Shown in pieces: positions 1,645 to 26,045 of a stretch of DNA of 64,000 nt. The stretch is from Alphaproteobacteria bacterium. GTDB taxonomy: Bacteria; Pseudomonadota; Alphaproteobacteria; RF32; CAG-239. The DNA is taken from contig SUUK01000004.1 in NCBI GenBank assembly GCA_015062535.1, forward strand, positions 62,001 to 126,000. The letters are read 5' to 3'. The notes beneath the pieces were generated by a model. The model ran no database searches. It was not told the DNA's origin and saw nothing but the letters and a program-made list of their open reading frames with translations. Numbering within the stretch: the stretch's first letter is position 1; every line of letters starts with the position of its first letter. Both the position numbers and the translations under genes were made by a program.

Positions 1645-2400
1645 TTAATTACGTTTCACTTGCCTATAATCAACAACAGTAAATCCTAATGGATTTTTCA
1701 AACGTTCACCAAATTTAACCTTTTTGGCAACATATTTAATTTTAACATGAGCCACCCAAACACTTACCCTTGGAGTTTCAAGAGCTGGTGTCATATCTTC
1801 CATTCTAAACTCAACTTGCCACCAATCTTCACCTCTTTCACCGCCAACTTCTGTAACAGAAGCTATTTTGATGTTACGAGTTATATTATATTGGCTAATT
1901 TTCTCAATTGTTGGTTTAGCAACTTCATTATAAAATTTGCTATAAGTCCCGGGAGAAGATAATTCTCTAAGTTGCCCACGTTCACCCCAGCGTAATTCCA
2001 TTTCATCTATATCGTTTACAAATGTATTACGCAATAACACATACTCTCTTACAAATATTTCTGTTAAATACTTTTGATCATAAATATTTTTAACAGGAAT
2101 AATAGAATAAATCTGTTCCTCTTTATTATCAAAGCTCATCAAATAAGGAACAACTCGATAAAGAGGTGTTATAGCCACAATCACATAAAGTAATATCATA
2201 TTACAACACACACTAACTGCAAAAATAATTGCAAAAGCTCTTGCAGTCCATAGATATCTTTTTTCTGTAGCATTTTCTACCACAACATCACTTTTAGCTT
2301 TGCGAGAACGCATTGCTTGAGGAGGAACAGTGGCTTTTGGGCCTGACTTTCCTTCAAGTAATATTTTTTTTGTGTTATCTGATGATATTTGCTCCACCAT
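1645..2400 (-). CDS. virB8: VirB8-like inner-membrane T4SS protein (copy 2)
   Basis: A 251-residue bitopic inner-membrane protein. The N-terminal ~55 residues are cytoplasmic and basic, one transmembrane helix follows (about 56-78), then a periplasmic domain. The C-terminus has NPLGFTVVDYR, the hallmark of the VirB8 family (PF04335). VirB8 is an assembly and bridging factor of VirB-type T4SS. It lies between the VirB7-like lipoprotein and virB9, the usual neighbourhood. The start ATG at 2400 has an AAGAGG site upstream. A second VirB8-like gene lies at 2753-3511; the two differ in sequence but end in the same NPLGF motif, so they are diverged paralogues. They may form a hetero-oligomer, which is inference. 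Confidence 0.88.
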   Translation of the reverse strand: MVEQISSDNTKKILLEGKSGPKATVPPQAMRSRKAKSDVVVENATEKRYLWTARAFAIIFAVSVCCNMILLYVIVAITPLYRVVPYLMSFDNKEEQIYSIIPVKNIYDQKYLTEIFVREYVLLRNTFVNDIDEMELRWGERGQLRELSSPGTYSKFYNEVAKPTIEKISQYNITRNIKIASVTEVGGERGEDWWQVEFRMEDMTPALETPRVSVWVAHVKIKYVAKKVKFGERLKNPLGFTVVDYRQVKRN

Positions 2401-2420: not shown

Positions 2421-2609
2421 CTAAACGGATGCCACAAACCATTCTGGCAATCTTTTAGGCAATTCTACTTCGATACATGCACAAGGAGATAGTTTTAGTT
2501 CGTAAACATCTTTACCAATACCAACAGGTTCTGGTTCATAATAGCTTCCAACCAAACGACAAGAAGCTAATCCTAATAAAACAGATAATAAAATAAGCGC
2601 TTTATACAT
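2421..2609 (-). CDS. VirB7-like small lipoprotein
   Basis: A 62-residue lipoprotein from the ATG at 2609, which has GGGGAG close upstream; an in-frame ATG at 2621 is also possible, with AAGGAG further upstream. The N-terminus is a short hydrophobic signal ending in the lipobox LASC, so Cys would be acylated after cleavage. The mature part carries a Cys-Ala-Cys pair. VirB7 proteins are small lipoproteins that pair with VirB9. The position, between two virB8 genes and just before virB9, and the size fit that role. VirB7 sequences are too short and variable to confirm by eye, so the assignment rests on lipobox, size and context. Confidence 0.7.
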   Translation of the reverse strand: MYKALILLSVLLGLASCRLVGSYYEPEPVGIGKDVYELKLSPCACIEVELPKRLPEWFVASV

Positions 2610-2752
2610 ATTACTCCCCATATAAAAATATTCTCCTTTTATAATTAAATCTTTTAATTTTAAAAGTCTAACGAGAAAATGATTTCCCTGTAACTTATCA
2701 ACAGGGTAAATATCATTATATTTAGGATAACATGCTAATACTTAAATTTTTT

Positions 2753-3511
2753 TTAAACTTTTATCTCACTTTGCGAATAACTACTAATTATAAACCCTAA
2801 TGGATTTATTAATCTCTTAAAAGATATTATTCGCCTAGAATTTATCAATCCTCTAATTGTTACGGTCCAATATTTTTCTATTATTGTTGGCTCTACATCT
2901 GAAAGTCTTCCTAATTCTTCTTTATTATACGTATAATCATATGTTTTAAATTCTACCTCCCAAGTATTACTTTTTTCACCACCGGTTCTTCTTACAAACA
3001 ATATCTCTACCGAACGACTTGCTCTTTTTTTATCTAATTCCTCTTTTACTCTAGGGTATTCTTCTGCAAACTTTTTATATACTTTAACAGTAGATAGATA
3101 TGATACAATCCCCCCCCAAGCCCAACGATTTACCATTTCTTTTTCGTCTATAATATAGGAATTTCTCATCTCTATGTATTGTTTAATAAAATTAATCATC
3201 ATCTTTTCACGAGATTCCATCTGACTATTTACAAATTCCCTTTTCACAATAGATTGCGAATCTGACATATTTACAAAAATCTGCGGATCAATCATTATCT
3301 CTGGAGCCAACTTCATAATGGATAATGTTGTACACACACCCAAAAGTAAAGACATTGTAGCCAATAGTCCCATTAGTCTACTTAGCCATTTATAATAGAC
3401 AAGTTTAGCACGTTGCACTTCTATAACATCTTCTGTTATAAATTGCGGAGAATTATTAGCTTTATTATTTGAACCAATACGTAATACTTTTTGATTTTCT
3501 AGATTGGCCAT
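2753..3511 (-). CDS. virB8: VirB8-like inner-membrane T4SS protein (copy 1)
   Basis: A 252-residue VirB8 family protein with a cytoplasmic N-terminus, a transmembrane segment at about residues 43-65, and a periplasmic domain ending NPLGFIISSYSQ, which matches the family C-terminal motif. The start at 3511 follows AAGGAG. It sits 18 bases after the giant exported protein and is followed by a 130-base gap and the VirB7-like lipoprotein. The order virB8-virB7-virB8-virB9 means virB8 is duplicated around virB7. Duplicated virB8 genes are known from the reduced T4SS of Rickettsiales. The gap downstream contains a small inverted repeat (CCCTGT/ACAGGG, 2686-2706) without a clear T tract. Confidence 0.86.
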   Translation of the reverse strand: MANLENQKVLRIGSNNKANNSPQFITEDVIEVQRAKLVYYKWLSRLMGLLATMSLLLGVCTTLSIMKLAPEIMIDPQIFVNMSDSQSIVKREFVNSQMESREKMMINFIKQYIEMRNSYIIDEKEMVNRWAWGGIVSYLSTVKVYKKFAEEYPRVKEELDKKRASRSVEILFVRRTGGEKSNTWEVEFKTYDYTYNKEELGRLSDVEPTIIEKYWTVTIRGLINSRRIISFKRLINPLGFIISSYSQSEIKV

Positions 3512-3529: not shown

Positions 3530-6500
3530 TTAATATACTGGACAATATGCGACACTTCTTGATTGGTTATCCATAGCAACAATCGCAGCATTATCTGTTT
3601 CAAGAGATGCATTTCTATTAGCTTCAGCTTCCTTAACTGCTTCTTCAACACTTGTAGCTGTTGCTCCTGGAGAAATAACACTTAGTTCTCTTGTATCTTT
3701 ATCAAAAGCTTCAATATAATTTTTTATTTCCTCTAAACGCTCATCGACTTTAGATATATGTTTATTATAGCGAGTATTTGATTTGATTTCATTATATAGC
3801 TTTCTTGCTTCTTCAAGCTTTTGCGTCTTCACAGCATCTAATACACATGCGATAGATGTATAATAGCCTTTAGATGAATTAACATTAGCACATTTTTCGG
3901 TTGTTATATTATAATTAGTGTCTGATGAAGATGATGCCAAACCGCCATCTTCCATTATGCTCTTAGCACAAGCTTCAGTGTCTACATTACCTTCTTCGTC
4001 AACTTCTATACCTTTTACAACCATATTGCTATATTCGCCTAGCTGTTCACAAAGATTTTTTAATGTATCCAAAATTTCTTGCTTACTTTTATCGTAATTC
4101 TTTCTAGCATTAAACTCTGCATTTACGTTTTCTAAGAAAGAACCCATAACATTACGTTTAAATGATACTGTTTCTGCAAGCTGTCTATCTACATTATTTC
4201 TTTGATTTTTCTTATTTTCTAAATACTCAAAACTACTAGATAGAAGTTTTCTGTATTTTAATTTCTTTCCATCTACTCGTAAAAGTTGTGACAACTCACT
4301 ATGTTTTGTATACATTTCTTCAAAGCTTCCACCTTCAACCTTTTCTAGAGCAAAGTTTTTACTGTCTTTCTTAGAGCCATCAAAATCTGATAGTAAGTGT
4401 TGAATATATTTTGAGCTATAATATCCAACATCATGACATTGAACTCTTGCTGCTCCAGATGGAATATTTCCTGTGCGTCTAGTTATTTTTACCTTCTTGA
4501 TCTTATCGTGAGAATCCAAATCTATAACCTTACCTGATAATAGACATGGATATACACCACCTCGAGACAATACTTTGGTTGCCTCATCATTTTTAAATCT
4601 TTTTAAGTAATCTCTTATTTTATTTTGACCATATCCTCTCTCAACAAATGTTTGTTGATATTTTCCATCTCTTCTCATATTTGGACGAGCTAAGATGTAA
4701 TTCCAAACTTCAGGGAAATACTCATAGTCTTCATCTTGATATTTAAAGTCTAATAATGATGACAATGCAGGTGCTGGGTCTTTTTTCCTACCTGTCGTTG
4801 GAATTTCTTTATAATCTAAAGCACTGAAGTAGAATACTTCACGAAGAGGTGGTATTGATGCTAATGGTTCACGAGGAGCCATGTAGTCACAACCAGCATT
4901 CTTTTTGCTATCACCTCCATATGTACATCTATCTTCATCTGCAATATTTTCACTTACACCTCTTGCAGGCAATCCAACAAAATATTCACTGTCGGTTGTA
5001 ATAACTTTATCACTTGGAATACCAAATAACTCTCTTAAATTTATTCCTGCACTATTTAATACACTTTCATTTTCTGGAGTTGCCAAATCTTCAATCAACT
5101 TCAAGTGTCCAATTGTTATTTTACCTTTTTCTGGTTCTTCATTAGTTGATTTATATTCATTTACGGCATCTCTTGTTAAATAGTTTTCATGTGACATAAT
5201 GTCATATACACTACCCTTATTTGGACATGCTGGACTTACTTCATTGTCTCCTTCGCCTTCTAAACAAAGCTTAGCACCTGACCATTCATTTACTTCTTCA
5301 ATCGCTTTTTCTAGCTCTTGGTGAATAATTCTGTCTGACTGTGCAATGTATTCAACAATCTGCTTTGCCGCCTCATTTTTTATTGCTTCTTTTATTGCGT
5401 TAATAACTTTTTCAAAACTTGAATATGTTCCTGCTTCTAGTGTAACATTCATACCTAGATCTAATAGTTCACTAACTACTATCTCATTTGGTAAATTAAG
5501 AGCTCCCAAGCCTTTACTTATTTCGCTACCGATATTTTTAAGCCACTTTTCTTCTATTTGATTTTTCGCATATTTAATAGCTTCTTGCTTTGCTTTTGTA
5601 TCGTTAATTGATTTATTGTTTAGGTTTTGATAAAAGGCAGCGATTGTTACCATTAAATCATCATCACCTCTGTATTTTCCATTTTTAGCTTTCATACGAG
5701 GGCCATCTTCTTCTGCGACAAAATCCTCAAAATCACTATTTTCTTTTTCTATTTTTTCTTGAGCATCTTCTGCCATATCTATATATTTCTCAGCAAAATC
5801 TTCCGCTTTTTTCTCAAGCTCCTCATCAATTTTAATGATTTGTTGTTTGCTATCATCTATCAATATTTGTTTTTCATCTATCTTTTTATCCAAATTTTTA
5901 ATTTGTTTTTCTGCCTCTTTTATAGTTATAAAGCTATCTTTTTCGTTATAAACTTTACATCTTTGCTTATTGTTTGCTAATTCAATACATGTTTTACACT
6001 CTTTTGCATAGCTATTGCTAATACAATCACTTTCAAGAGCTAACATAACTATTGAATCGTTTAGCACATCTATTTCTTCTTTTATCTTTAGTGTTGGATT
6101 ATTATTTAATTTATCTATAAGCAGTCTCTTCTTTTGATCTATAGATTTTATATCATTATTAATCATTGTTAAGCGCTGTTTTGAATTTTCAAGCCTTGTT
6201 ACATATTCTTTTTTCTCTTCACGCGCCTTACTTAAATCTTTACTCCAACTTGTTCTATTTTGAATTAATCTCTTGCGTCTTGTTTTTAGATTTGTAACGT
6301 TTGTGTTGTACGCTTTTATATACTCTGCTATTATTTTTTCTTGAGTATCTTTCACACTCATTACATCATCTAATCTATCTGATGCAACCTCTCTTTTTCG
6401 TTTAGAGTTTTCAGCAGTAGTTTTAAGTTTAAGCACTTCTCCTTCTATTGTTGGCATACATCCACCTAACGTTGCTTTCATGAAGTTTTTAACAATACCA

Positions 6501-8977
6501 TTTATTGTATAATTCCAAGTTGGAGGACAGCCTGTGCTATTTTCCCCAATCTTTTCTATGATTGAAGTCGCATCAGCGCTTTCTTCTTTTTTAAGCTCTT
6601 CAGGATATGATTTCTCATCATTTTTAATGCTTAAATCAACGCTTCCAGATTTTGCTGTTGTTATTGCTCCACTCTTTTCTGGATTTTTTCCTTCTGTATA
6701 AGTTTGTTTTATAATATCAATGGTGCCTGCATTTTTCTTTTTAGCATAGCATTCTAAGTTAATCTCTTTACTTTTATTTACTGTATATTCATAAGATACA
6801 AGCTCTTTTTTTCCATCTCCATCTTTATCTTCCCACTTCGTACTTGTTGCAGTTTCAGTCCAAGTTGCTGTAACTTGATCTATATATTTATCTTCGCCAT
6901 TAACATATGCATACTCGTATCCTGCGCACATACCTTGTTTTGCCGCATATCTAATAGCTGAACCATCTTTAATAGCCTCATCAACTGTCTTTACAGCACT
7001 TATTTTCTTAACTAGATTTGCTACTGGCTCTTGTTCTATTTTTAATGGATCTTTAGAACTTTCGCTTCTTGCTATTTTATATGAAGCAAGAGCTTTATCT
7101 GTAGAACGAATAATCATTCTCATATTTCTATATTTATTTGTCATATACTCTTTTTGGATTTCTTGTTGGTCGTTCCATTGGGCAAATGTTAATTGACCTG
7201 ATCGTCCTAAATCACTAACAGCTTTTGCACCAATTCTCCAACTAGCCTCTGCTTTTTTGCGATTTTCTGTATCAATATCTTCAGCTTTTGTTCCGTCAAT
7301 TAGTCCTTCTGCCGCATCCTCATTATTATCATTATTAGCTGCTGGTGTTCCAGCTCCATCTTCGTCTTCATCATCACCTTTTTCATCATCTTCTTTTAAT
7401 ATCTCACCATAATTAGTAACCTTACTAGAATAGCTTCCTGCTGACATATCTGATGATGCTAACTCTACAACACATGGATATAATTTAGCATCAGTTTCAC
7501 AAGGATTATTTTTATCTGCAACATATCCTTCTGGACATGCATTTTCTTCATAATATCCATCACATGCTTTTGAATCTGTTCCTATAATTGTATCTGTGGT
7601 ATGTTGTTGATACTCTTCAATTAATTGTCTAGATACACCACCTCTTAATTCGTGTTGATTTGAAGTTACTTTAGAACCACCATACCATAAATTTACAGCA
7701 TCTTGCCTTCTTTTACTTGGAATATGTCTTTGAATAAAATCAACAACACAACTATCGCTTTCTTCTAAAACTTTAGCTGCTCTTTTTTTAATTTCTTCTG
7801 CCTTTAAGTATTTACGATATTGAGTTTTATAGTCTGGCAACTCACTTTTTAGATTATGTACTACCATTACTTCTGTTAGTAAATCCTCAATTGGTTGAAG
7901 CTTACTATTAATTTCTGTATCATCCATGGTTGTCAAATCTATTGTTGTTTTATTAACTCGAGGACAACCTTTTCCTCCATTTTTACACGCATCACTTTTA
8001 TTTATTTTCAAGTTTAACACATTACCTTTTAGATATTCTTTTACATTTAATTTTGCATTTGCATATTCTTTAGTTGAGTTATATGCAAATTGGAATTTAT
8101 TTTCTTTATTGATATTATTAAATGATGTTGTCATAGGTTCAACAGCATCAAGCTGTTTTGATGCATTGTATAGAGCTTCAATTGCTGTTAAATCCTCAAT
8201 AACTCTTAATAATCTATCATAAACTGTTGCTATAATATAAGCATTTGTACTTTCACCAACCATTCCTGCTTGGTCGCCTTCTGTTGTTGGTGTTTCTTCC
8301 ATTGTTGGATCTGTGTAACCTAATTGCATGCCAAAGAACACACAATCATTATCCCTTAATTCACCTATACGGCATTGGTCTAATCTGTTTATTGTTTTTT
8401 CTATTACATTCAATAAATCTTCATTCATTCTACCGGCAATATATGTATCAACAATCATATCTTGCTGATAGTCTAACTTTTTCTGTGCATATGCTTTTGC
8501 TAGAACTGAATAGTTTCCACTATAGCTATCCTTACTTGGTAATTGGAAAAATAGTTTGAAATAAGCATTATAATAAACTTCTTCATTTAATGCTTCTGGA
8601 CTATTTGCATCTGGTAAACCTAAATCACTATCTCTTAGGACTCCGCCTCTACCTGGAGTTTTGTTACCACCTTTTTTCTCACTCTTATTACTATTTAATA
8701 AACTTGCAAACTTGCCTTTTAGTGCTCCTTTAAGATCAAAATTACCAAGTTTTAGTCCAGCAAGACCGCCTGATAGACCATTTGTTTTTATACTTTGTAC
8801 CTTTCGATATATTGACTGAACATTTGATAAAACCTTATTAGCATTATTTGGAATATTGAACTCCAAATCCCAAGGCATAGGAGGTAAAAAGCCAAACGCC
8901 TTTGTTTCTGTTGTTACAGAGCATAAGATTACAGCACTTAATAACAAACATTTAAATAATTTAGATATGTTATTCAT
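3530..8977 (-). CDS. Giant exported coiled-coil protein of the T4SS cluster (1815 aa)
   Basis: I do not recognise a family for this protein. The ATG at 8977 is preferred over one 18 codons upstream because TAGGGAGG lies just before it and a signal peptide (about residues 1-27, ending ETKAF) begins there. The first mature residues (FGFLPPMPWDLEF, then a helical stretch) follow the same plan as the four exported proteins encoded upstream. There is an acidic linker near residue 530, long charged coiled-coil segments roughly at 870-1110, and scattered Cys residues including a CKTC cluster that suggest periplasmic disulfides. No further transmembrane helix is obvious. A region around residues 130-290 looks related to the C-terminal half of the neighbouring 433-residue protein (shared LDAVEP/LLTVEP ending). 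The gene lies in the virB4-virB8 interval and is probably cotranscribed with the T4SS. Confidence 0.8.
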   Translation of the reverse strand: MNNISKLFKCLLLSAVILCSVTTETKAFGFLPPMPWDLEFNIPNNANKVLSNVQSIYRKVQSIKTNGLSGGLAGLKLGNFDLKGALKGKFASLLNSNKSEKKGGNKTPGRGGVLRDSDLGLPDANSPEALNEEVYYNAYFKLFFQLPSKDSYSGNYSVLAKAYAQKKLDYQQDMIVDTYIAGRMNEDLLNVIEKTINRLDQCRIGELRDNDCVFFGMQLGYTDPTMEETPTTEGDQAGMVGESTNAYIIATVYDRLLRVIEDLTAIEALYNASKQLDAVEPMTTSFNNINKENKFQFAYNSTKEYANAKLNVKEYLKGNVLNLKINKSDACKNGGKGCPRVNKTTIDLTTMDDTEINSKLQPIEDLLTEVMVVHNLKSELPDYKTQYRKYLKAEEIKKRAAKVLEESDSCVVDFIQRHIPSKRRQDAVNLWYGGSKVTSNQHELRGGVSRQLIEEYQQHTTDTIIGTDSKACDGYYEENACPEGYVADKNNPCETDAKLYPCVVELASSDMSAGSYSSKVTNYGEILKEDDEKGDDEDEDGAGTPAANNDNNEDAAEGLIDGTKAEDIDTENRKKAEASWRIGAKAVSDLGRSGQLTFAQWNDQQEIQKEYMTNKYRNMRMIIRSTDKALASYKIARSESSKDPLKIEQEPVANLVKKISAVKTVDEAIKDGSAIRYAAKQGMCAGYEYAYVNGEDKYIDQVTATWTETATSTKWEDKDGDGKKELVSYEYTVNKSKEINLECYAKKKNAGTIDIIKQTYTEGKNPEKSGAITTAKSGSVDLSIKNDEKSYPEELKKEESADATSIIEKIGENSTGCPPTWNYTINGIVKNFMKATLGGCMPTIEGEVLKLKTTAENSKRKREVASDRLDDVMSVKDTQEKIIAEYIKAYNTNVTNLKTRRKRLIQNRTSWSKDLSKAREEKKEYVTRLENSKQRLTMINNDIKSIDQKKRLLIDKLNNNPTLKIKEEIDVLNDSIVMLALESDCISNSYAKECKTCIELANNKQRCKVYNEKDSFITIKEAEKQIKNLDKKIDEKQILIDDSKQQIIKIDEELEKKAEDFAEKYIDMAEDAQEKIEKENSDFEDFVAEEDGPRMKAKNGKYRGDDDLMVTIAAFYQNLNNKSINDTKAKQEAIKYAKNQIEEKWLKNIGSEISKGLGALNLPNEIVVSELLDLGMNVTLEAGTYSSFEKVINAIKEAIKNEAAKQIVEYIAQSDRIIHQELEKAIEEVNEWSGAKLCLEGEGDNEVSPACPNKGSVYDIMSHENYLTRDAVNEYKSTNEEPEKGKITIGHLKLIEDLATPENESVLNSAGINLRELFGIPSDKVITTDSEYFVGLPARGVSENIADEDRCTYGGDSKKNAGCDYMAPREPLASIPPLREVFYFSALDYKEIPTTGRKKDPAPALSSLLDFKYQDEDYEYFPEVWNYILARPNMRRDGKYQQTFVERGYGQNKIRDYLKRFKNDEATKVLSRGGVYPCLLSGKVIDLDSHDKIKKVKITRRTGNIPSGAARVQCHDVGYYSSKYIQHLLSDFDGSKKDSKNFALEKVEGGSFEEMYTKHSELSQLLRVDGKKLKYRKLLSSSFEYLENKKNQRNNVDRQLAETVSFKRNVMGSFLENVNAEFNARKNYDKSKQEILDTLKNLCEQLGEYSNMVVKGIEVDEEGNVDTEACAKSIMEDGGLASSSSDTNYNITTEKCANVNSSKGYYTSIACVLDAVKTQKLEEARKLYNEIKSNTRYNKHISKVDERLEEIKNYIEAFDKDTRELSVISPGATATSVEEAVKEAEANRNASLETDNAAIVAMDNQSRSVAYCPVY

Positions 8978-8987
8978 GGCGACCTCC

Positions 8988-10289
8988 CTATTTACTTTCC
9001 TTAAATGCGTCAATTCCGATGTTACCTTCATCTTCTATTGCTTTTACATATGAATCTGTTAGTTTATATTTTCCTAAATCAAAACCTTCGTACTCTTCTT
9101 CATCAACATTTCCCCTTCTACGAGGTTCTACTGTTAATAAATCTTTTGCTGCAATATATTGCAATTTTGCACTTTGCAATTTTGCATATAATAATAGAGC
9201 TCTCATATTTTCAACTTTTGTACCAGAATAGTAACCTATTGCTTGGAATTCACTATCTGTTGATCTTACACCATCATACATCTCTTTTATTAGATTTGTT
9301 CTTTCCGGTAATTCTCTACGAATAGTTGCTGTTACTTGCAATAAGTGTATTGCACTATTTACAACAAGATGCTTTCTATTTCTGGTTACTTTATCCATCT
9401 CTGTTTGATATGCTAACTTATCAACATCTCCAGTTATATTAAATTCACTATAAAAATATTTCTTAATGAACTTTTTATATTCATCTTCTTTTATAGTAAA
9501 ATTCTCAATAAGATTTTCATCATCCCAATTTAAATCGTTTACATCTCCAGCACCTATATTTACTTCTTCATCTTTAGATGCATCTAATGCTTTTATTCTA
9601 TCCTCATAAGCTTTATATTCAGGGTCTGCACTAGTTCCAATTATAGAAGCTTCTTTATCCAATAATTCAGAACTCTTTTCTAATTCTGTAATATTAGCTT
9701 CTAGCTCTTTTTGTCTTAATACTAATTCATCTAATTTAGATTGTGCTTCATCATATTTATCCCTAGCCTTACTAATTTCTTCTACATCATCACTATTTGC
9801 TTTTATTGTTTCATATTGAGTTTTCTGAATTTTCAAATTTTGTTCAGCTATTTTTATTTCTGTTTTTGTTTTTTTCAAATCAGTTTCTAGTTCTGTTTTA
9901 TTGTCTTTTAGTACATTCTGTTTGGTTTCATAATACATTTGGCTTGTTTTTTGATACTGTTGCTTATCATCCTCTAGTTGACCTTTTTCTTTACTTTTTG
10001 TATCTTCAACTATTGCTTTATCTGATTTAGAAAGTATTTTACCTTTATATTTTTTTAGATACTCTTTACCTTTTTTAAAAACGTCTAATTTACTAAAACC
10101 TTGTGTTGCAGTTTGTTTTATTTGTGATATTTGTTGAGTAATTTTGGTTACAGCATCAGTAACTTTTCCCATCCAGTCACTAATCTTTGCAGACAAAGAC
10201 ATTGGGTCTAGAATGAGCGCATCTGCAGGCTTTGTACCTACAAATGTTAGCATCATTATTATCATTATATAACTTGCTATTTTCCTCAT
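8988..10289 (-). CDS. Exported coiled-coil protein, VirB5-position (433 aa)
   Basis: A 433-residue exported protein. The signal peptide (1-25, ending PADAL) is followed by DPMSLSAKISDWMG and a helical stretch. Residues ~95-215 are a strongly charged coiled coil rich in K, E, Q and D. The C-terminal third is helical with a basic VEPRRRG motif. The start at 10289 has a G-rich TAGGGGGG site, and the gene ends 10 bases before the start of the giant protein. Signal peptide, short amphipathic segment and coiled coil recall VirB5, the periplasmic minor pilus subunit, but similarity by eye is weak. It shares ATQGF/AVQGF with the 239-residue neighbour and a C-terminal block with the giant protein. Function unassigned. 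Confidence 0.78.
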   Translation of the reverse strand: MRKIASYIMIIMMLTFVGTKPADALILDPMSLSAKISDWMGKVTDAVTKITQQISQIKQTATQGFSKLDVFKKGKEYLKKYKGKILSKSDKAIVEDTKSKEKGQLEDDKQQYQKTSQMYYETKQNVLKDNKTELETDLKKTKTEIKIAEQNLKIQKTQYETIKANSDDVEEISKARDKYDEAQSKLDELVLRQKELEANITELEKSSELLDKEASIIGTSADPEYKAYEDRIKALDASKDEEVNIGAGDVNDLNWDDENLIENFTIKEDEYKKFIKKYFYSEFNITGDVDKLAYQTEMDKVTRNRKHLVVNSAIHLLQVTATIRRELPERTNLIKEMYDGVRSTDSEFQAIGYYSGTKVENMRALLLYAKLQSAKLQYIAAKDLLTVEPRRRGNVDEEEYEGFDLGKYKLTDSYVKAIEDEGNIGIDAFKESK

Positions 10290-10302
10290 CTTATCCCCCC
10301 TA

Positions 10303-11022
10303 TTAATTACTCAACTGTTCGTCTAATTCATCTTTTTTTACGCTATTTTTTGAAAGTTCTTTAGTTGCATCAGCACCAATCATATATGCGCGTAATTCTA
10401 ATATTCTGCTTAGTCTTTCCTGACTTTTTAAGGTTAATGTATTATGTACAGCTAATATATCACTTTGACTTTCACCAATATCGTTACTGTATATTTCTTC
10501 AGCTTTTTCATTTCTTATACTTTGTCTTGTTGCCATTGCTTTTGCAAACAATATTGCAATTTCATCTGCTGTTACAGCATTTAATTCTTGCTTTTTCTTT
10601 GCTGTTGCTTCAAGAGAGTTTTTTTGTCCTTCTATAAATGTATAGTTTTCCATAATTTCCTTATCTAACCCTTTAGCTGATTCTGTTTTTAAGTTTGATG
10701 AAGCTAATTTTTCTGCTCCAGGAACTGTTCTAACACCAGTAATTGACTTTATACTGCCAATAGCGCCCTTTCCTAATGATCCAAGAGTTTTAATATCACA
10801 TTTTAGAGGATTAGCAAAACAGTTTGATGCAGCTTGGAAACCTTGAACGGCTCTTTTATAAGCATCCATTATTTTTTTCTGAACAGCTTCGATTTTGTTC
10901 ATTATCTCAGTTTTTAGCTCTAAACCTGATTGTATTGTTGCCATAACATCAATAATTGCATTTGCAGGTCTTGCAACTGATATCATTGATACTATTAAGG
11001 CTATCACAAATACTTTTTTCAT
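10303..11022 (-). CDS. Exported helical protein, best VirB5-like candidate (239 aa)
   Basis: A 239-residue exported protein close to the usual VirB5 size. The signal peptide ends ANAI at about residue 22. The mature N-terminus (IDVMATIQSGLELKTEIMNK) resembles the start of VirB5 proteins, where a short leader is followed by a long helix. Two Cys (in SNCFANPLKC) could form a disulfide. The C-terminal helix has a QERLSRILELRAYM segment that is typical in style for VirB5. The ribosome-binding site is GGGTGGAGGGA before ATG 11022. Of the five exported proteins in the block this is the one I would test first as the VirB5 pilus-tip subunit; family membership is inferred from architecture and position. 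Confidence 0.72.
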   Translation of the reverse strand: MKKVFVIALIVSMISVARPANAIIDVMATIQSGLELKTEIMNKIEAVQKKIMDAYKRAVQGFQAASNCFANPLKCDIKTLGSLGKGAIGSIKSITGVRTVPGAEKLASSNLKTESAKGLDKEIMENYTFIEGQKNSLEATAKKKQELNAVTADEIAILFAKAMATRQSIRNEKAEEIYSNDIGESQSDILAVHNTLTLKSQERLSRILELRAYMIGADATKELSKNSVKKDELDEQLSN

Positions 11023-11040
11023 ACTTTATCCCTCCACCCT

Positions 11041-13278
11041 TTACTCACTTTCTTCTGGAAAATAACTAAAATCAAAAGTTTGTAAATCTCTTAAAATTTG
11101 TGTTTGCAAATTAAGAGCATCTGTATCTACCATATTGAGCATTTGTTGTGTTCCATAATAGTTTATTTGAGCACCAGCTGCATAAGCATCACGAGCTTGA
11201 CTAATTTGCCTAATACCATCTTGCAAAGATACTATATTTATCTTTCCATTATCTAAACTGCTTACTGGAATATAATCTTCTGTTGAATTATAGTTTGCTA
11301 TAGTTGCTAATACTAAATTTTCAAAAGCTGCATCTTGTAATGCCATCCTTTGTCTATCTTTCCATTCTTTTTTAGTTGCATCAGATGCTTCTTCTTTTGA
11401 TTGTCCTTTAATATATCCTCTACTTGCTCCAGAGGCATACATGTACAAACATTCTTTTAATTTTTCTTCTTGGTCTGTTAGCTGTTCACCTTTTTTAATA
11501 GAAATATCTTCTGCCTTTATTCCACTTACAATTTTTTGATCATGACAATGATACAACATTACATTTGGAAAAACTTTTTGATTATCTGCTTCTATAACTC
11601 CTCCGTTATAATTAAGAGCGTCTTTCACTTCCTCATTATTTTCATCTCTTGTATCTATATAAATATCATTTTCTACAGAAAATATATTCACCATATCTTT
11701 TGCTCTAAATACAGCATCTACTTGACGAATCATACTCCAAAATCTTGGGCTCCAAAGTTCAATTGAAGCTAAGGCAGCTAGACCTGAAAGTGTGTTATCC
11801 ACATCACCTTTACTAATCATCTCTTCTAATGACTTAATTTCTGATTGATTTTCATTATCATCACCTCTAAAGCTAGATGCAAACTGCTTTGCTCTACTTA
11901 TTGTTACAATATTTGCAGAACTATAATCTTGAAGAATGTGCTTATAAACACCATCTTGTAAATAAGGCTTATATAAATCATCTTGAGATTTTTGTTCTTT
12001 TTTCGCCTCAGAAACACATACTCTCAACCAGTTGGGATTATTTAATTTTTTTAAATCATCCTTATCTTTATTATTACACATAAATTCTTTTGATATAAGA
12101 AAAGGACTTCCTTCTGATTGTTCATTATAAACAGCTACAGAAAAGACATTATTTTTCTTACTTGCAAAATTGAAAGAATATTTATCTCCTTGTGTCAAAT
12201 TAACTGGTCTTTTTAGTGGAACAGTTATTTTTTCATCAACAGACGGATTGCTTTTAAACGAAGATGTATCATTTTGTTCAGGTTCATCTTCATCAGAATA
12301 TTCTTTGCTATTACTTATAGAATCTAGCATTTCTTCTTTCAAGTTATCTATTTTTTCAACAACTGCATCAACTTGAGCAGAAAAACTATCTATAAGATTT
12401 TGAGACATTCCACTATCAAGTGAGTTTATTGTATCTTTAAATGTCTCACCTGCAGCCTTTAGCTGTTCAATGCTTATTTTACCTAAAGCATAATCATCTA
12501 TAGCTTTACTATATTGGCTATAAGCATCAGAGATACTTTCTGCATATTGAGTATCTATATTTTCTTTAGCTTGATTTATTGCGCTATTTGCTGTTTCTTT
12601 TAATTTATTAATATCATTTTTAAGATCATTAGCGCTTTGGTTTAATTTATTCTTAGCTTCTTCAGATAAATCTTGATTAGTATTTACTGCACCTACAATC
12701 ATATCGATAGATGTGTTTGCATTATCTAATGTTTCGTTTATATTATCTAAGGCTTCATCATATATTGCATTTATAGCATCTCTATTTGCTTCAGAAGCTT
12801 GTCGCGCTGCTTTTATTATTTCTTGAATATCACTACTATCATATCCACTCATTGCACTTTGATTTACGTTATTTACAGTTGATGATGCATTATCTTTTTC
12901 ATTATTTAAGTAGCCTTCAACTTTTCCTTTAACATCTTCAATTATACCTGTCATTTCATCAATAGCACCTTTTACTGTTTCAACAGCCTCTTCTATTGAT
13001 TCTTTTATTTTTGTTATAGTATTACGCAAGTCTGTCATGTATTTTTTCATTGTTGCTATTTGGTCACCAATAGCTTTAATTGTATTCATTACATTATCTA
13101 ACTGACTTTTTGCATTTGTAATTGTTGAAATCCCAGTTGTTATTGAATTAACAAATGATGATATTTGAGTAATATCAATACATGGCCAAATAAAAGCTTT
13201 TGCAGGGTTAGATAAAACCAAACTACAACATAAGGCAACTATGCCTAATATTTTTTTAGTTGTTGTTTTAATCTTCAT
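11041..13278 (-). CDS. Exported coiled-coil protein of the T4SS cluster (745 aa)
   Basis: No clear family. A signal peptide (1-28, ending NPAKAF) is followed by IWPCIDITQISSFV, very like the mature start of the next gene upstream (FWPVFDFTEIAPVY). Residues ~45-345 are an almost continuous helical coiled coil (many N, K, D, A). A more globular region follows with several Cys, and the last 100 residues are helical with YAAGAQINYYGTQQML. The translation start at 13278 has a strong AGGGAGGG site. The leader around it pairs over 13 contiguous bases with the second hairpin loop of the non-coding locus at 58140-58197. It lies 18 bases before the next gene. Likely a periplasmic or secreted T4SS accessory protein. 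Confidence 0.78.
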   Translation of the reverse strand: MKIKTTTKKILGIVALCCSLVLSNPAKAFIWPCIDITQISSFVNSITTGISTITNAKSQLDNVMNTIKAIGDQIATMKKYMTDLRNTITKIKESIEEAVETVKGAIDEMTGIIEDVKGKVEGYLNNEKDNASSTVNNVNQSAMSGYDSSDIQEIIKAARQASEANRDAINAIYDEALDNINETLDNANTSIDMIVGAVNTNQDLSEEAKNKLNQSANDLKNDINKLKETANSAINQAKENIDTQYAESISDAYSQYSKAIDDYALGKISIEQLKAAGETFKDTINSLDSGMSQNLIDSFSAQVDAVVEKIDNLKEEMLDSISNSKEYSDEDEPEQNDTSSFKSNPSVDEKITVPLKRPVNLTQGDKYSFNFASKKNNVFSVAVYNEQSEGSPFLISKEFMCNNKDKDDLKKLNNPNWLRVCVSEAKKEQKSQDDLYKPYLQDGVYKHILQDYSSANIVTISRAKQFASSFRGDDNENQSEIKSLEEMISKGDVDNTLSGLAALASIELWSPRFWSMIRQVDAVFRAKDMVNIFSVENDIYIDTRDENNEEVKDALNYNGGVIEADNQKVFPNVMLYHCHDQKIVSGIKAEDISIKKGEQLTDQEEKLKECLYMYASGASRGYIKGQSKEEASDATKKEWKDRQRMALQDAAFENLVLATIANYNSTEDYIPVSSLDNGKINIVSLQDGIRQISQARDAYAAGAQINYYGTQQMLNMVDTDALNLQTQILRDLQTFDFSYFPEESE

Positions 13279-13320
13279 GTCAGTCCCTCCCTAATAATCT
13301 ATACTCTAATTATCATCACT

Positions 13321-14757
13321 TTATACTTTTGAAACAACTTTATCTTCTGCTTTTTTTACATTATCACTTAAGATTGTTAACTCTTTTTGCATGGTTTTTA
13401 TTGAATTTTCTATATTTTGCATAACACTATTATCAGGAGTTACTTTTATTGATGCAATAGATTTTTTTAAGTTTACTCCTGCATCTTTTAATTCTTTTTT
13501 AGTTGCATCTCCTTTTACATATGCAATTGCTATTTTTTCATAGTTTTTATAACCGCCAACTATTTTATCATTGTATTCTTGGTTATAGTTATCTTTTATT
13601 GCTTCTATTACCCCTACAAGTCTTTTAGATGTTTCTTCTTGTTTTTGTTTAATGTCTGATATTTTTTGTAATAAATCTTTTTTATCTTCTTCTTCAATAT
13701 TTTGCGCTTTATTTATTACATATTCCATTTGTCTTAATTTTTCTTGATTGTACTCAAAGTTTTTATGAACTGTATTTAATGATATATCTAATAAATCATT
13801 TAATTGTTCACTCAAAGAGGCGCTTTCTGATAAAATCAAAGCAATATTTTCCTTTATAGAATCAATTCTTAATTGATCTTCTGCCTCAGAAACTTCTTCC
13901 TCCTCTTCTTCCTCTTCAATAAACATAGGAACTAAATTTCCATCTGTCTTTTTCAATGCTCCTTTACTTAAATTTTTATTTGGCAATGAAATGCCACTAT
14001 TCTTTTCATTATTTGCCGGAGCGATACTACCACTTCCTAGACTTGTTTTAGGAAGTAAAATACCTGTACTTGGTTTTAATTCTTTATTACCGCTTCCTGT
14101 TGATGGAGTAATGCTACCATTTCCTAGACTTGGCTCAGGAAGTAAAATACCTGTACTTGGTTTTAATTCTTTATTACCGCTTCCTGTTGATGGAGTAATG
14201 CTACCATTTCCTAGACTTGGCTCAGGAAGTAAAATATCTGTACTTGGTTTTAATTCTTTATTACCGCTATCTATATTGCCATCTGCTATGCTTTCTTCTG
14301 TTGAGATGTCTTTATATTTATTATCATCTTTATCATCAGAAACTCCCGTCATACTTTCTGTAGACCCTACTCCAACATTAGCCATTTCACTATTTCCAGC
14401 CTCTACATTCTTTGCAGCATCATTAGCCCCTTTACCTGCTTTTAAGTCTACACCAAGAGTACCTGCCACATCATTTGCTGCATTCTTTATTGTCTCTGCT
14501 GCATTTGTAATTTGAGTACTAATATCTTTAGCAAAAGCACCTAAGCCATTAATGGTATTTCCTAATGCACTTAGGTTATCTTTTAACTCTATAAGTTGGC
14601 CCTTTAAATTTTTAAGAGATTCAAGGGTAGTACTAACTTGAGAATAAACAGGAGCAATTTCTGTAAAATCAAATACTGGCCAAAAAGCTTTTGCTGGCTT
14701 TCCCACAATTAAAGCACAGCAAAACAACACAGCTATTAAGCTTTTAGACTTCATCAT
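13321..14757 (-). CDS. Exported coiled-coil protein with 29-residue repeats (478 aa)
   Basis: The reading frame extends to 14826, but the start is placed at ATG 14757 (or 14754) because AGGGAGGAG lies just upstream and the signal peptide (ending KPAKAF) begins there. The mature start FWPVFDFTEIAPVY is shared with the 745-residue neighbour. A helical segment (about 30-90) resembles the first helix of VirB5 proteins. Then come near-identical 29-residue repeats (unit beginning GNKELKPSTGILLPEPS), a run of eight Glu, and a C-terminal coiled coil of ~180 residues. It is the first gene after virB4, where virB5 often sits. The repeats suggest an extended, possibly surface-exposed spacer. Function unknown. 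Confidence 0.76.
   Translation of the reverse strand: MMKSKSLIAVLFCCALIVGKPAKAFWPVFDFTEIAPVYSQVSTTLESLKNLKGQLIELKDNLSALGNTINGLGAFAKDISTQITNAAETIKNAANDVAGTLGVDLKAGKGANDAAKNVEAGNSEMANVGVGSTESMTGVSDDKDDNKYKDISTEESIADGNIDSGNKELKPSTDILLPEPSLGNGSITPSTGSGNKELKPSTGILLPEPSLGNGSITPSTGSGNKELKPSTGILLPKTSLGSGSIAPANNEKNSGISLPNKNLSKGALKKTDGNLVPMFIEEEEEEEEVSEAEDQLRIDSIKENIALILSESASLSEQLNDLLDISLNTVHKNFEYNQEKLRQMEYVINKAQNIEEEDKKDLLQKISDIKQKQEETSKRLVGVIEAIKDNYNQEYNDKIVGGYKNYEKIAIAYVKGDATKKELKDAGVNLKKSIASIKVTPDNSVMQNIENSIKTMQKELTILSDNVKKAEDKVVSKV
14016..14268 (-). repeat. 87-bp in-frame tandem repeats
   Basis: Copies start at 14050, 14137 and 14224, an exact period of 87 bases (29 codons). The first two copies are almost identical, the third is partial, and a degenerate piece lies at 14016-14049. 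The repeats keep the reading frame of the exported protein. Their near-identity points to recent duplication and possible copy-number variation between strains. Confidence 0.92.
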
Positions 14758-14831: not shown

Positions 14832-17282
14832 TTATCCTCCAAAACCTTCCAAATATTTTGTAACAAACGCTTCTTCACCATACTCTCTAATCAAGCTTTC
14901 AACCAACAATACGTTTTTAATACTAGAATTGTATAACTTAAGATATGGACCAAGCCCTCCTAAATTAACATCCAATATCACAGACTCTCCTCTACCATCA
15001 TCAGCATCAGGTCTCTTTAATAATATAGCATAAGGACAATCTCTATACGTTCTTCCTTCAATAAAGTCATATTCACTTGCTGTTAAATTCCATTTTTCAT
15101 ATGATTCAGGTGTTGCTTGAGTGTTTCTAAAGAATATCATTGTTTTACATTGCCCACGAACAGCATCACCCACACCTAATGTATCAACAATATTTGGCTG
15201 TTGGAAAGCGCAAAGATAAGCTTGTCTTTTTTTACGTCCCTCTTGAAGACCTTTGATAAAGTTATCTCTAAACATTTCATGCTTTAACATAGGCGCGGTC
15301 TCGTCGATCATAATAAGTGCAGGCGAACCAGTTTCTGTACTTTCTGATTGAATTCTATGCATAATATAGCTAATAGATGCTGCAGCTAATACATCATCAT
15401 CAAAAATTTCTGTAAAGTCAAAGGCTACAAATCTATTGCCACTCAAATCAAGACTATCATGATCTGCATTAAAAATATTACCGTATTGCTCTGGATTTAT
15501 CCATCGATATAATTCTCTACGCATACTTCCTGTTGGAGAAAAGCAACTCTTGTATAGATTTTTTAACTTTCTTTCTTCTGGGCGTAAATATTCAAATGCT
15601 GTTGTTACAGCACGAGACGCTTCTCTTTCAGATAAAGCATCTGTTGCCATAGTAATAGATCTTAACCAGTTTCGCAAAAAGTCCCTATTTGATCTAGTAT
15701 CTCTTGTATCAAAAGGATTGAGCGATACGTTTTTGCGCTCACCACTAAATCCTACATATGCCCCCCTTACTGTCCGTGTAAATATTTCTGCACCGCGGTG
15801 ACGGTCAAAGAAGTATACTTTTAAGTCTTCATGACGCATAGCTTGGCCAGCTAAAAACGTCAATAAAGTTGTTTTACCTTGACCTGTTGGACCAACAATA
15901 CAACAGTGAGCAACTGCAGCCTCACCTGCGGTAATATGAAATTGGAAACGATAAGGAGAACCTGTCATTGTCCTAAATACTGTAATAGCTCCTTCACCCC
16001 AGTCAGATCTTGGCAAACCTGTTGAAATTTGTTCAAACGAAACAGCTAGCGCCACAATTCTAGATAAATAGAAATATGTCCTACCACATGTGTCATATCC
16101 AGGAAACTGATTAAAGAATGTTGCTTGAGCTATCCAGTTTTCTCTAACAGGTGTTACACTAAATAAACGGCAAATTCTTTGTATTTCACTTTCAGCAAAT
16201 TCTATTTCTTCTAAGCTATCACCTTTAACAAGAAAGTTCATAGAATATTGAACAAGAGACTGATGATCTGCATCACTATCTTCTATTGCACTTAGAGCTT
16301 CACTATATTGAGAAACTACACCCGATGAAAAGCTTGTAGCTGTCGCCATTTTTTGCTGTTGCATTAAAATAGCTCTAGCTTTTGGCGTGTATAAAGGCAC
16401 AAGACTGTGCAACATTGTCATTTCGCAGTCTATAGACATTAATGACGAAACCATTGCTTCATCCATATAGTCACCAGAACTTCTAATACCAATTGTTAAA
16501 ACATATTTAGTTTTAGTGCCTGAAAAAAACTTAATAATACCTTCTTCACCTGTAAAATGAATCCCTTCAGAAGTCATAAGTTCTTTTAATTGAAATCCTA
16601 CTGCTTTTCTTGCTTTTGGTTTAGGTTTACTAATAGGATTTAAGACTCTCACAAATGGGTATATAGGACTTTGCTCTGCAGGGCTATTTTCATCTTCATA
16701 CATAACCCTTATACCATAATCATTTAAGTTAGCTATTGTAGACTGAGATGCTGTATTTAAATCTTTTATAGCATCTTTTCTATCTGGCACCGATAAAATG
16801 ATATAATGATCATTCTTATAAACTCTTGTTAAACTTTCTTTCCATTTACCATCAACCTTTTCAAGCCAAGGGTTACCAAAATTAGATTTATTCTCTGCAA
16901 GCTCAGCTCTTTCTCTAATAGTATATATACGACAATTTACTTGCGTACTTGATATATTATCTATCCACGATTTACGAGCTTCAAACATTGACATAATAAC
17001 TTCTTCTCTTGCCGCAGTTAAGTCTACACCATCAATTTTAAACACTCTAACATACGATCCATTACTACATCTTAATGTTGTACCATCAGAAAGAAGTCTA
17101 TCAAAAGGCAAAAAGTCAGCCACCCTTGTCTCACTTGGCTGAGGCAATACTTTTGCACCAATCTTAGAAACCAAAGACACAGAGATTAAACCAGCAGCAA
17201 TAATACCTAGCAAAGCCACAAAAACTTCTATACTTTGCAGTCCCTCCATAAATAGTGTATAAAAATCAAAATTAAGGCTCAA
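14832..17282 (-). CDS. virB4: VirB4 T4SS ATPase
   Basis: An 816-residue VirB4/TrbE family ATPase, the inner-membrane motor that energises T4SS assembly and substrate transfer. A hydrophobic segment lies near residues 18-42. The Walker A motif GPTGQGKTT is at about 464-472, and the Walker B strand ALIMIDET near 657. Length is normal for the family. The start is a TTG at 17282 with a GGGGAAT site upstream, overlapping the end of virB3 by 11 bases, which implies translational coupling; the next ATG (17249) has no ribosome-binding site. It is followed 74 bases later by the five exported-protein genes. Strong assignment. Confidence 0.95.
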   Translation of the reverse strand: MSLNFDFYTLFMEGLQSIEVFVALLGIIAAGLISVSLVSKIGAKVLPQPSETRVADFLPFDRLLSDGTTLRCSNGSYVRVFKIDGVDLTAAREEVIMSMFEARKSWIDNISSTQVNCRIYTIRERAELAENKSNFGNPWLEKVDGKWKESLTRVYKNDHYIILSVPDRKDAIKDLNTASQSTIANLNDYGIRVMYEDENSPAEQSPIYPFVRVLNPISKPKPKARKAVGFQLKELMTSEGIHFTGEEGIIKFFSGTKTKYVLTIGIRSSGDYMDEAMVSSLMSIDCEMTMLHSLVPLYTPKARAILMQQQKMATATSFSSGVVSQYSEALSAIEDSDADHQSLVQYSMNFLVKGDSLEEIEFAESEIQRICRLFSVTPVRENWIAQATFFNQFPGYDTCGRTYFYLSRIVALAVSFEQISTGLPRSDWGEGAITVFRTMTGSPYRFQFHITAGEAAVAHCCIVGPTGQGKTTLLTFLAGQAMRHEDLKVYFFDRHRGAEIFTRTVRGAYVGFSGERKNVSLNPFDTRDTRSNRDFLRNWLRSITMATDALSEREASRAVTTAFEYLRPEERKLKNLYKSCFSPTGSMRRELYRWINPEQYGNIFNADHDSLDLSGNRFVAFDFTEIFDDDVLAAASISYIMHRIQSESTETGSPALIMIDETAPMLKHEMFRDNFIKGLQEGRKKRQAYLCAFQQPNIVDTLGVGDAVRGQCKTMIFFRNTQATPESYEKWNLTASEYDFIEGRTYRDCPYAILLKRPDADDGRGESVILDVNLGGLGPYLKLYNSSIKNVLLVESLIREYGEEAFVTKYLEGFGG

Positions 17283-17562
17283 ATTTATTCCCCTTTACTT
17301 TGTAAAGATTAGTTGATTGCAAATTTGTAGCTCCATAGGCTTGAAGCATTCCAGACAAATGCGGATCTTTTGCACTAAGAACCACAACGAAAAGATGTCC
17401 CAAAACTATTGTTATGATAAATATAAGAGGGTTAGCATCAGCCATACCGATTGCCATAAACATAAAAGGAATCTGAAGCCCTGCATTTAAAGCAGCAGGC
17501 AACACAGCCCCCCAAAACAATTTTGGAGGATTAGCAACAGCTTTTAATATTACATCCCTCAT
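17272..17562 (-). CDS. virB3: VirB3 inner-membrane T4SS protein
   Basis: A 96-residue protein with two adjacent hydrophobic helices (about residues 20-40 and 42-62) after a short basic/polar N-terminus (VANPPKLFWGA), then a conserved DPHL segment. This is the VirB3 plan (PF05101). VirB3 associates with VirB4 at the inner membrane, and in some systems the two are fused; here the genes overlap by 11 bases. It lies between the VirB2-like genes and virB4, the canonical order. Confidence 0.9.
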   Translation of the reverse strand: MRDVILKAVANPPKLFWGAVLPAALNAGLQIPFMFMAIGMADANPLIFIITIVLGHLFVVVLSAKDPHLSGMLQAYGATNLQSTNLYKVKGNKFEP

Positions 17563-17675: not shown

Positions 17676-18062
17676 CTACTTACACAAACCACTATAACAA
17701 GAACCCGTTTGACCTGCATTTTTATAATTTTCACCAAATTCATGATCAGCAACGAGACTTGAACTCTGATCCATCGCATTATCTGTTACATAATCGATCA
17801 ACGCACCAACAGCTGAAACCATGAACAAGCTAAGCGTGATATAACCAAGGTGTTTGAAATTTATTTTTCCACTAATTGCTAAAAATGTAAACATTATTAG
17901 ACCAAAACCACTTAACACATATGCTAAATTTCTTAATCCAATAGCAAAAACACCCGCCCTCGTGGAAAGAGTGCCAAAAATATTAGCATTTGCATCAAAA
18001 CACACAAACATGCTAAGAAAAACATACATAGCAACCAATATAAATTTCAAATTCCTTCTCAT
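17676..18062 (-). CDS. virB2: VirB2-like pilin (third copy, with Cys-containing tail)
   Basis: A 128-residue VirB2/TrbC-like pilin. The start is set at ATG 18062, preceded by AAGGAGGG, rather than the longer upstream extension. A signal peptide ends near NANI; two hydrophobic helices follow, separated by the short polar loop GKINFKH, as in VirB2. Unlike the other two copies it has a polar C-terminal tail of ~30 residues ending GSCYSGLCK with two Cys. It is 10 bases downstream of the second copy. Probably a minor or specialised pilus subunit; that role is inference. Confidence 0.82.
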   Translation of the reverse strand: MRRNLKFILVAMYVFLSMFVCFDANANIFGTLSTRAGVFAIGLRNLAYVLSGFGLIMFTFLAISGKINFKHLGYITLSLFMVSAVGALIDYVTDNAMDQSSSLVADHEFGENYKNAGQTGSCYSGLCK

Positions 18063-18072
18063 AACACCCTCC

Positions 18073-18384
18073 TTACTCACCATTCAAGTTCACATCAACG
18101 CCATCCGCAAACAATTGTATAAAACCAGAGCATGATGCGATTACTATCAAACCAACAACTATTGCCATTAACCACTTCCAGTTGATATTACCAAAAAAAC
18201 CACCTATACACACACAAATAACACCAATTGCAGAAGCCGGATATATAATACTCCTTAAACCTACAAATATATTTGTACCAGAAGTCTTCAAACCCGTAAA
18301 CTGAGCCCACGCACTATCAGGAAGCAAAATCACGATAGTCGCAAGAACAACAAATAAAATAAACGACTTATCTAACTTAAACAT
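18073..18384 (-). CDS. virB2: VirB2-like pilin (second copy)
   Basis: A 103-residue VirB2-like protein. The start is ATG 18384, because GGGAGGGAGG at 18400-18391 is an ideal ribosome-binding site; the longer frame to 18402 would run through that site. A signal peptide ends SAWAQ, and two hydrophobic helices flank the loop GNINWKW, matching GKVKWTW and GKINFKH in the other copies. The leader from about 18408 to 18384 is 23/25 identical to the third loop sequence (plus strand) of the hairpin locus at 58205-58266, so this mRNA is the best candidate target of that RNA. It follows an intrinsic terminator and has its own putative promoter. Confidence 0.85.
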   Translation of the reverse strand: MFKLDKSFILFVVLATIVILLPDSAWAQFTGLKTSGTNIFVGLRSIIYPASAIGVICVCIGGFFGNINWKWLMAIVVGLIVIASCSGFIQLFADGVDVNLNGE

Positions 18385-18413
18385 AACATACCTCCCTCCC
18401 AATTATATCTTTT

Positions 18414-18442
18414 ATCATACCACATTTTTTCTAATTTTTCCA
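18414..18442 (-). promoter_or_regulatory. Putative promoter for virB2 copies 2-3 and downstream T4SS genes
   Basis: On the minus strand a TGG-extended -10 TATGAT (18419-18414) lies 17 bases after TGGAAA (18442-18437). It is just downstream of the terminator that follows the first virB2, and it would let the rest of the operon be expressed independently. Consensus match is moderate. Confidence 0.42.
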
Positions 18443-18540
18443 CTAAAAAAAGACATCCTTAAAAACTTCCAACACATTGTTTTATAACTATTTTTACTGC
18501 TTGTAACAAAAGTTTAATATTGTAAACTTTTATTTATATA

Positions 18541-18574
18541 AAAAAGTATCGGGAGCAAAACTCCCGATACTTTA
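18541..18574 (-). terminator. Intrinsic terminator/attenuator after the first virB2
   Basis: A perfect 13-bp stem (AAAGTATCGGGAG/CTCCCGATACTTT, 18543-18573) with a five-base loop is followed on the minus strand by a T-rich run. It separates the first virB2 from the other T4SS genes, so this pilin can be made in excess while partial read-through feeds the operon. Confidence 0.85.
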
Positions 18575-18597
18575 TTTTGTTTAGTGATACACACAGA

Positions 18598-18975
18598 TTA
18601 TTCACCAGTACCACCAGCAATACCTGTACCAGCACCTTCAAATGTATCTATCACTTCTGCGTTATGTGCTGCACCTCTACCCATTATATCACCTGTTGCG
18701 TAGTTTACAATAGATGCTGCAGCAGCCAAGATAGCCATACCAACTGCAAGACCTGCAAACCATGTCCATTTTACTTTACCGAAAATAGCTTGGAAAGCAA
18801 TACCTACTAAACCGAAACCACCTACAACAAAGATAATAATTTTAACGTGGTTAAAAATTGTAACAGCTTTTTCTGTCGCTGTGTTCATAACTTGCGCATG
18901 AGATGCATCCGCAAATAATAAAGTAAACAAGAATGCTAAAGAGCACAATGTTAACATTTTTTTCAAGTTTCTCAT
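18598..18975 (-). CDS. virB2: VirB2-like major T4SS pilin (first copy)
   Basis: A 125-residue VirB2/TrbC-like pilin. The start is ATG 18975 after TAGGAGAACG; the frame upstream to 19035 overlaps the promoter. A signal peptide ends DASHAQ. Two hydrophobic helices are separated by GKVKWTWF, the short cytoplasmic loop of VirB2 pilins, and the C-terminus is Gly/Ala-rich. As first gene behind its own promoter and followed directly by a strong terminator it is the likely major T-pilus subunit. Two diverged copies follow. Its start is divergent from the type IVb pilus cluster, 294 bases away. Confidence 0.88.
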   Translation of the reverse strand: MRNLKKMLTLCSLAFLFTLLFADASHAQVMNTATEKAVTIFNHVKIIIFVVGGFGLVGIAFQAIFGKVKWTWFAGLAVGMAILAAAASIVNYATGDIMGRGAAHNAEVIDTFEGAGTGIAGGTGE

Positions 18976-19006
18976 TTTCGTTCTCCTAAATTTATTACAC
19001 ATTATT

Positions 19007-19035
19007 ATTAGAGCACATTTTTTAAAAAAAATCAA
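19007..19035 (-). promoter_or_regulatory. Putative virB2 promoter
   Basis: TTGATT (19035-19030), a 17-base spacer and TCTAAT (19012-19007) sit about 35 bases upstream of the virB2 start. The remaining divergent spacer (19036-19269) is very AT-rich and contains no gene that I can see. Confidence 0.45.
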
Positions 19036-20487: not shown

Positions 20488-20601
20488 GAGATTTTACCAC
20501 ATGTATCAACAAAACGTTTCATAAATAATGTGTTAAGCTTGATTAATTATTTTTTAACATTTATTGTGAACTGAGATTACATTTTAAAGATAGGTCGAAT
20601 T

Positions 20602-23287: not shown

Positions 23288-23297
23288 GGAGCAAAAC

Positions 23298-26007: not shown

Positions 26008-26045
26008 AGCATAAAACATTATATATTATGTATGGATGAGTAGTA

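Follow-up and report, generated by a model that had tools for sequence, protein, structure and literature searches.

Our analysis reveals a multi-gene VirB5-like set in the type IV secretion system (T4SS) of a gut alphaproteobacterium. It is a real set, conserved across the family of the source genome, of five related, fast-evolving and mostly enlarged proteins (P1 to P5). To our knowledge, other T4SSs have a single VirB5, and for Rickettsia none is reported. A multi-gene VirB5-like set has apparently not been described so far, and a limited literature search gave no earlier report. With a probability of about 0.58, we consider P1 to P5 to be expanded and divergent exported VirB5-type subunits of a chromosomal T4SS, which would form a multi-subunit stalk or pilus tip, inflated in this lineage, on a base of several VirB6 paralogues. 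The window analysed here is a stretch of 64,000 nucleotides (bases 62001-126000 of contig C11) from a 1.73-Mb genome, and its T4SS features are listed in Table 1.

Table 1. T4SS features of the window (positions counted from its first base)
Feature	Position	Strand	Length (aa)	Description	Basis
Second VirB8	1645..2400	-		VirB8	PF04335, E 1.5e-17
VirB7-position lipoprotein	2421..2621	-	66	Kept in relatives	Sequence and synteny
First VirB8	2753..3511	-		VirB8	PF04335, E 1.4e-9
P5	3530..8977	-	1815	Class d; e4-alignable N-terminal module, then Cys-containing d-core with coiled-coil insert	
P4	8988..10289	-	433	Class c; C-terminal helical hairpin preceded by an inserted long coiled-coil hairpin	
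P3	10303..11022	-	239	Class b; exported helical protein, VirB5-sized	
P2	11041..13278	-	745	Class a; paralogue of P1	ORF and profile
P1	13321..14757	-	478	Class a; exported VirB5/TrbJ-like N-terminal module, then low-complexity and coiled-coil extension	ORF
virB4	14832..17282	-		ATPase; synteny anchor	Orthologues in relatives
VirB3-like protein	17272..17562	-	96	Small membrane protein	ORF, position and appearance
Three consecutive small pilin-like ORFs	17676..19035	-	135, 109, 145	Two are TrbC/VirB2	

The five same-strand ORFs that the initial annotation had placed between virB4 and virB8 are present with the lengths it gave, and their order and starts fit. Arranged head to tail on the minus strand, they fill the interval from virB4 to the first of the two virB8 genes, with intergenic gaps of 11 to 42 bp among them and a gap of 74 bp between virB4 and P1. 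By inspection, a signal-peptide-like stretch opens each of them, ending in KPAKA, NPAKA, RPANA, KPADA, and TETKA for P1 to P5, respectively. The P-A-x-A end once ascribed to all five thus stands for P1 to P4 and fails for P5. As read from the sequence, the mature proteins start with FWPVFDFTEI (P1), FIWPCIDITQI (P2), and LILDPMSL (P4). Such a start, a hydrophobic run followed by Asp or Asn, is found in 86 of 365 interval proteins versus 27 of 480 other exported ORFs of the same loci. The corresponding odds ratio of about 5, a figure that ignores phylogeny and refers to a motif picked post hoc, agrees with the hydrophobic/Asp mature start noticed at the outset. Coiled coil had also been claimed for each protein. 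P1, P2, P4, and P5 exceed composition shuffles in heptad-like windows, but P3 does not clearly do so and stays within the shuffle maximum. P5 is of mixed character: it contains 30 cysteines, its conserved core is not coiled, and coiled coil is not its main part. The interval genes share with VirB5 a Sec export signal (by inspection) and a location beside virB4.

Around the interval, both VirB8 proteins pass the Pfam cut-off. Among the three pilin-like ORFs, PF04956 matches those of 109 aa (E 6e-10) and 145 aa (E 2e-10); the 135-aa ORF is pilin-like by position and size only. VirB9, named by position and appearance, is also in the window. Beyond it are VirB10, which bears beta-flower repeats, as well as a giant repeat protein and VirB11; a VirD4 is on contig C13. 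VirB10 (1470 aa; L004:4718-16688) has eight beta-flower (PF21785) stretches and adjoins a 2516-aa protein with NGNVIGYVDENG-type repeats, which together suggest an unusually repeat-rich outer complex. Two more VirD4/TraG-like genes with similar scores are located at contig ends (G000:C4:866-2092 and G000:C5:328-1554) and perhaps belong to a conjugative element; the conserved VirD4 is the C13 copy, distinct from these two. Directly upstream of the T4SS genes, on the opposite strand, is a pilus operon (TcpQ, secretin, T2SSE ATPase, and T2SSF; window 19270-28851). Also present are a further minus-strand T2SSE ATPase (29504-30457) and an ORF resembling a type IV pilin (58715-59332).

A synteny survey of relatives found the same interval in VirB4-anchored loci of about 60 related MAGs, most of which are titled as Alphaproteobacteria of the gut, ruminant or other. 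HMMs for four classes, a to d (about 590, 222, 405, and 1293 positions, respectively), were built from 27 four-gene loci. Class a matched P1 (E 4e-9) and P2 (E 7e-12), class b matched P3 (E 2e-27), class c matched P4 (E 4e-19), and class d matched P5 (E 3e-77). The four-class synteny holds in these 27 loci and is recognisable in most other loci of the family. In one six-gene lineage, the gene number is explained by a and d having each split into two halves with export signals of their own, and another lineage has extra a-like pieces. Across 24 four-gene genomes, classes a to d had mean corrected distances of 1.75 to 2.63 versus 0.24 for VirB4 (about 7 to 11 times as large), with classes a to c near saturation.

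Related sets occur in at least three other alphaproteobacterial families, two of which have VirB5-sized members (217 to 268 aa) along with the conserved core of P5 (d-core). In family f74, the interval holds four exported genes of 225 to 268 aa (e1 to e4) and a d-core of about 640 aa, and TrbJ_Ti matches the first of these genes in one species (E 8e-5). In f4, it holds four genes of 217 to 244 aa together with a d homologue of 811 aa, and all of them show an export signal. Class d relatives of about 430 to 810 aa are present in further alphaproteobacterial families, P5 relatives being found in f4, f51, and f74. In f91, the d-core is preceded by an exported gene whose start reads PVFD and followed by a VirB8-like ORF. 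The d-core of P5 constitutes a conserved exported T4SS protein family in f1, f4, f51, and f74, and more weakly in f33, f40, and f91; no convincing Pfam, NCBIfam or PHROG model was found for it. Since the N-terminal part of class d aligns with e4, and a later, partly overlapping part with the d-core, a fusion is suggested for P5. From these sequences we infer an ancestral tandem of VirB5-sized genes and a d-core, which would have been inflated later in the family of the source genome.

The curated Pfam cut-off of the VirB5 model PF07996 (24.7 bits) was passed by no protein, either in the protein scan or in a six-frame search of the whole genome. Below this cut-off, PF07996 matched residues 27-128 of P1 in the protein scan (E 0.0065, 17.3 bits), and P1 (E 4.4e-4, 20.8 bits) and P2 (E 7.9e-4, 20.0 bits) were the sole matches in the six-frame search. 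Almost none of the class a, b, and c members in relatives matched PF07996 at E<0.05. Apolipoprotein and SMC matches of P2 and P4 in Pfam and NCBIfam were rejected as coiled-coil artefacts.

Profiles were also compared by hhalign, with scores that coiled coils may inflate, both with one another and with a combined VirB5 (plasmid) and TrbJ (chromosomal) profile; reversed profiles served as controls. Against VirB5/TrbJ, the P1 profile reached 86.5% (E 4.6e-6; reversed control 0.15%), class a 44% (reversed control <0.2%), and P2 a weaker 16%, whereas classes b, c, and d compared directly with VirB5 gave weak scores (<2%). P1 and P2 aligned with each other at 100% (E 4.5e-43; 3.5% reversed), and class a with P2 at 99.8%. 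The remaining classes were linked stepwise: a-b at 89% (2.7% reversed), a-c at 94% (1.4% reversed), e2, e3, and e4 with c at 70 to 81% (reversed controls up to 1.4%), e4-d at 95% (E 1.6e-8), and d-core with d at 98.6% (E 7.7e-16). Reversed controls did not exceed 3.5% for P1-VirB5/TrbJ, P1-P2, a-b, a-c, e2/e3/e4-c, and e4-d; the pair c-P2 (27% versus 31% for its reversed control) was set aside. The identification of P1 and P2, together with class a, as distant VirB5/TrbJ homologues is supported by these profiles. For P3 to P5, a VirB5 origin is plausible through the links via classes a, c, and e2 to e4, for which reversed controls were mostly negative. The initial proposal that all five stem from a VirB5-like ancestor, duplicated and expanded repeatedly, is to be graded likewise, and the homology of the set to VirB5 is moderately shown.

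These links bear on an alternative in which only P1 and P2 are VirB5, and P3 to P5, exported coiled-coil proteins without relation to it, joined the operon later as adhesins or periplasmic scaffolds. Direct VirB5 matches are indeed confined to P1, P2, and class a, and P5 possesses a large separate Cys-containing domain. However, the links a-b, a-c, e2/e3/e4-c, and e4-d are strong where their reversed controls are not, and the small interval genes of other families are all VirB5-sized, exported, and arranged in tandem. We regard this alternative as rather unlikely.

The AlphaFold2 (AF2) model of P3 (pLDDT 72) comprises three long helices and a small appendage, and the long helices of P3 and P4 (pLDDT 71) are laid out compatibly with VirB5. 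Foldseek gave a best E of 0.4 for P3, with CagL at E 3.1, and the VIA Z of 7.4 is within noise for helical bundles; for P4, the best E was 0.04, to generic coiled coils. Thus, on these two models, Foldseek and VIA returned generic helical bundles, CagL among them, and did not single out the VirB5 fold, a three-helix bundle with an appendage as in TraC. Searching PDB by sequence profile with classes a, b, and d likewise gave generic coiled coils only. As models of pLDDT 71-72 gave no decisive fold match, the structurally new pilus tip put forward in the initial annotation is still conjectural.

The initial annotation had seen no VirB6 in the window and took the exported genes to replace it. The absence from the window is correct, as a profile search of the whole genome found no VirB6 outside contig C9. 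Replacement is not: a weak VirB6 (PF04610) signal on C9 was resolved into an array of five paralogues, the fourth of which is split into ORFs of 171 and 314 aa, and a missing or replaced VirB6 is thereby ruled out. In relatives with both loci on one contig (G027, G029, and G054), about 27-28 kb separate virB4 from the array. VirB6-3 is present as two ORFs (N- and C-terminal halves; L006:14309-15770) in nearly all genomes of the window's genus and in several other lineages, and as a single ORF in others, the split being a conserved gene split. The VirB6 paralogues (L006:10343-18286) open with signal-peptide-like stretches, and lipobox-like N-termini (e.g., LCSCDE and LLCACSE) are seen in VirB6-2 and one VirB6-1 copy.

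Four orthologue groups, with support of 0.98-1.0, were resolved in a tree of 299 VirB6 cores. Only VirB6-1 is duplicated: independently in the window's genus and in two further lineages, and in G024 as a recent tandem. Placed on the VirB4 tree, exported genes and VirB6 copies numbered 4:4 in 24 genomes and 5:5 in 15, and all three large five-VirB6 lineages had more than four exported genes. When gains were placed on this tree at random, such agreement was reached with a P of 0.019 (branch-length weights) or 0.005 (uniform weights). The extra exported genes in two of the five-VirB6 lineages may be either duplications or rearranged class a pieces. Most six-gene loci with four VirB6 reflect the a/d gene fissions, which leaves G066 and G069 (6:4), G102 (5:4), and G024 (4:5) as exceptions. 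Strict one-to-one pairing of VirB5 and VirB6 is contradicted by G024 and, in other families, by f74 (5:3) and G043 (2:5). A mirror-tree comparison did not favour the partners a-1, b-2, c-3, and d-4, this diagonal ranking 17th of 24 assignments, with low power as the exported proteins are near saturation. Since counts are unequal outside the family and the mirror-tree lent no support to fixed partners, the paired VirB5/VirB6 expansion is a suggestive within-family pattern and no rule. A true hetero-oligomer, in which VirB5-type subunits would take different positions on a hetero-oligomeric VirB6 ring and VirB6 duplication would select an extra VirB5-type partner, is a possibility that we put forward tentatively.

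Alternatively, the paralogues could be alternative versions of VirB5, used one at a time as homopentamers and varying target binding, as in a Bartonella Trw-like variant tip. Tandem duplications of trwJ-trwH (virB5-virB7) in Bartonella (PMC2610397) offer a precedent, and the exported classes evolve very fast. Nevertheless, this explanation is improbable: the copies are old, diverged orthologue classes kept family-wide, with no recent near-identical tandem copies among them, and the VirB6 copies form old orthologue groups, too. That P1 to P5 are secreted substrates or surface proteins using the T4SS and not building it is very improbable, as their Sec-type signals, fast evolution, and large size are outweighed by a fixed place in the core operon between virB4 and virB8, kept in several families, and by the VirB5-like N-termini of P1 and P2.

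If P1 to P5 are indeed expanded VirB5-type subunits, tandem VirB5-sized genes and one larger partner (the d-core) would predate the family of the source genome. Within the family, coiled-coil insertions would have inflated the genes, and e4 and the d-core would have fused into P5; genes would have split in some lineages, and the P1-type gene would have been duplicated. In R388, VirB6 forms a pentamer that carries one VirB5 pentamer, and the latter is pushed outward as the pilus tip (PMC9259494), and DotA/IcmX pentamers are used similarly in Dot/Icm (PMC12857230). By analogy with the R388 arrangement, we infer that different VirB5-type subunits could assemble into a hetero-oligomeric stalk or cylinder and pilus tip on top of several VirB6 paralogues, of which there are five here, and that the fast-evolving coiled-coil extensions may be exposed and contact target cells. 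A conserved multi-gene VirB5-like set alongside a multi-paralogue VirB6 would thus suggest a hetero-oligomeric stalk or tip and, if true, would make it possible to test why four or five VirB6 paralogues are retained in some alphaproteobacterial T4SSs. Besides, the d-core represents a conserved T4SS protein hitherto without a name.

The set shares with VirB5/TraC/TrwJ/TrbJ (PF07996, TIGR02780) the place after virB4, the export signal, the mature N-terminal motif, and the profile match of P1 and class a. Where those systems have one gene of about 220-240 aa, however, five genes of up to 1815 aa are present here, all below the Pfam cut-off. Bartonella Trw likewise has several VirB5 and VirB6 copies within one system (PMC2610397), but there virB5-virB7 homologues were duplicated jointly in tandem as variants, whereas the classes here are old and the VirB5-like and VirB6 arrays separate. 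The Rickettsiales rvh system resembles ours in its several VirB6 paralogues (five in Rickettsia), duplicated VirB8, and scattered genes (PMC2653234), but VirB5 is unreported in Rickettsia, in contrast to the multi-gene VirB5-like set described here. The VirB5-on-VirB6 assembly of the R388 stalk and of Dot/Icm DotA/IcmX is the presumed template, although those stalks are homopentamers of single proteins.
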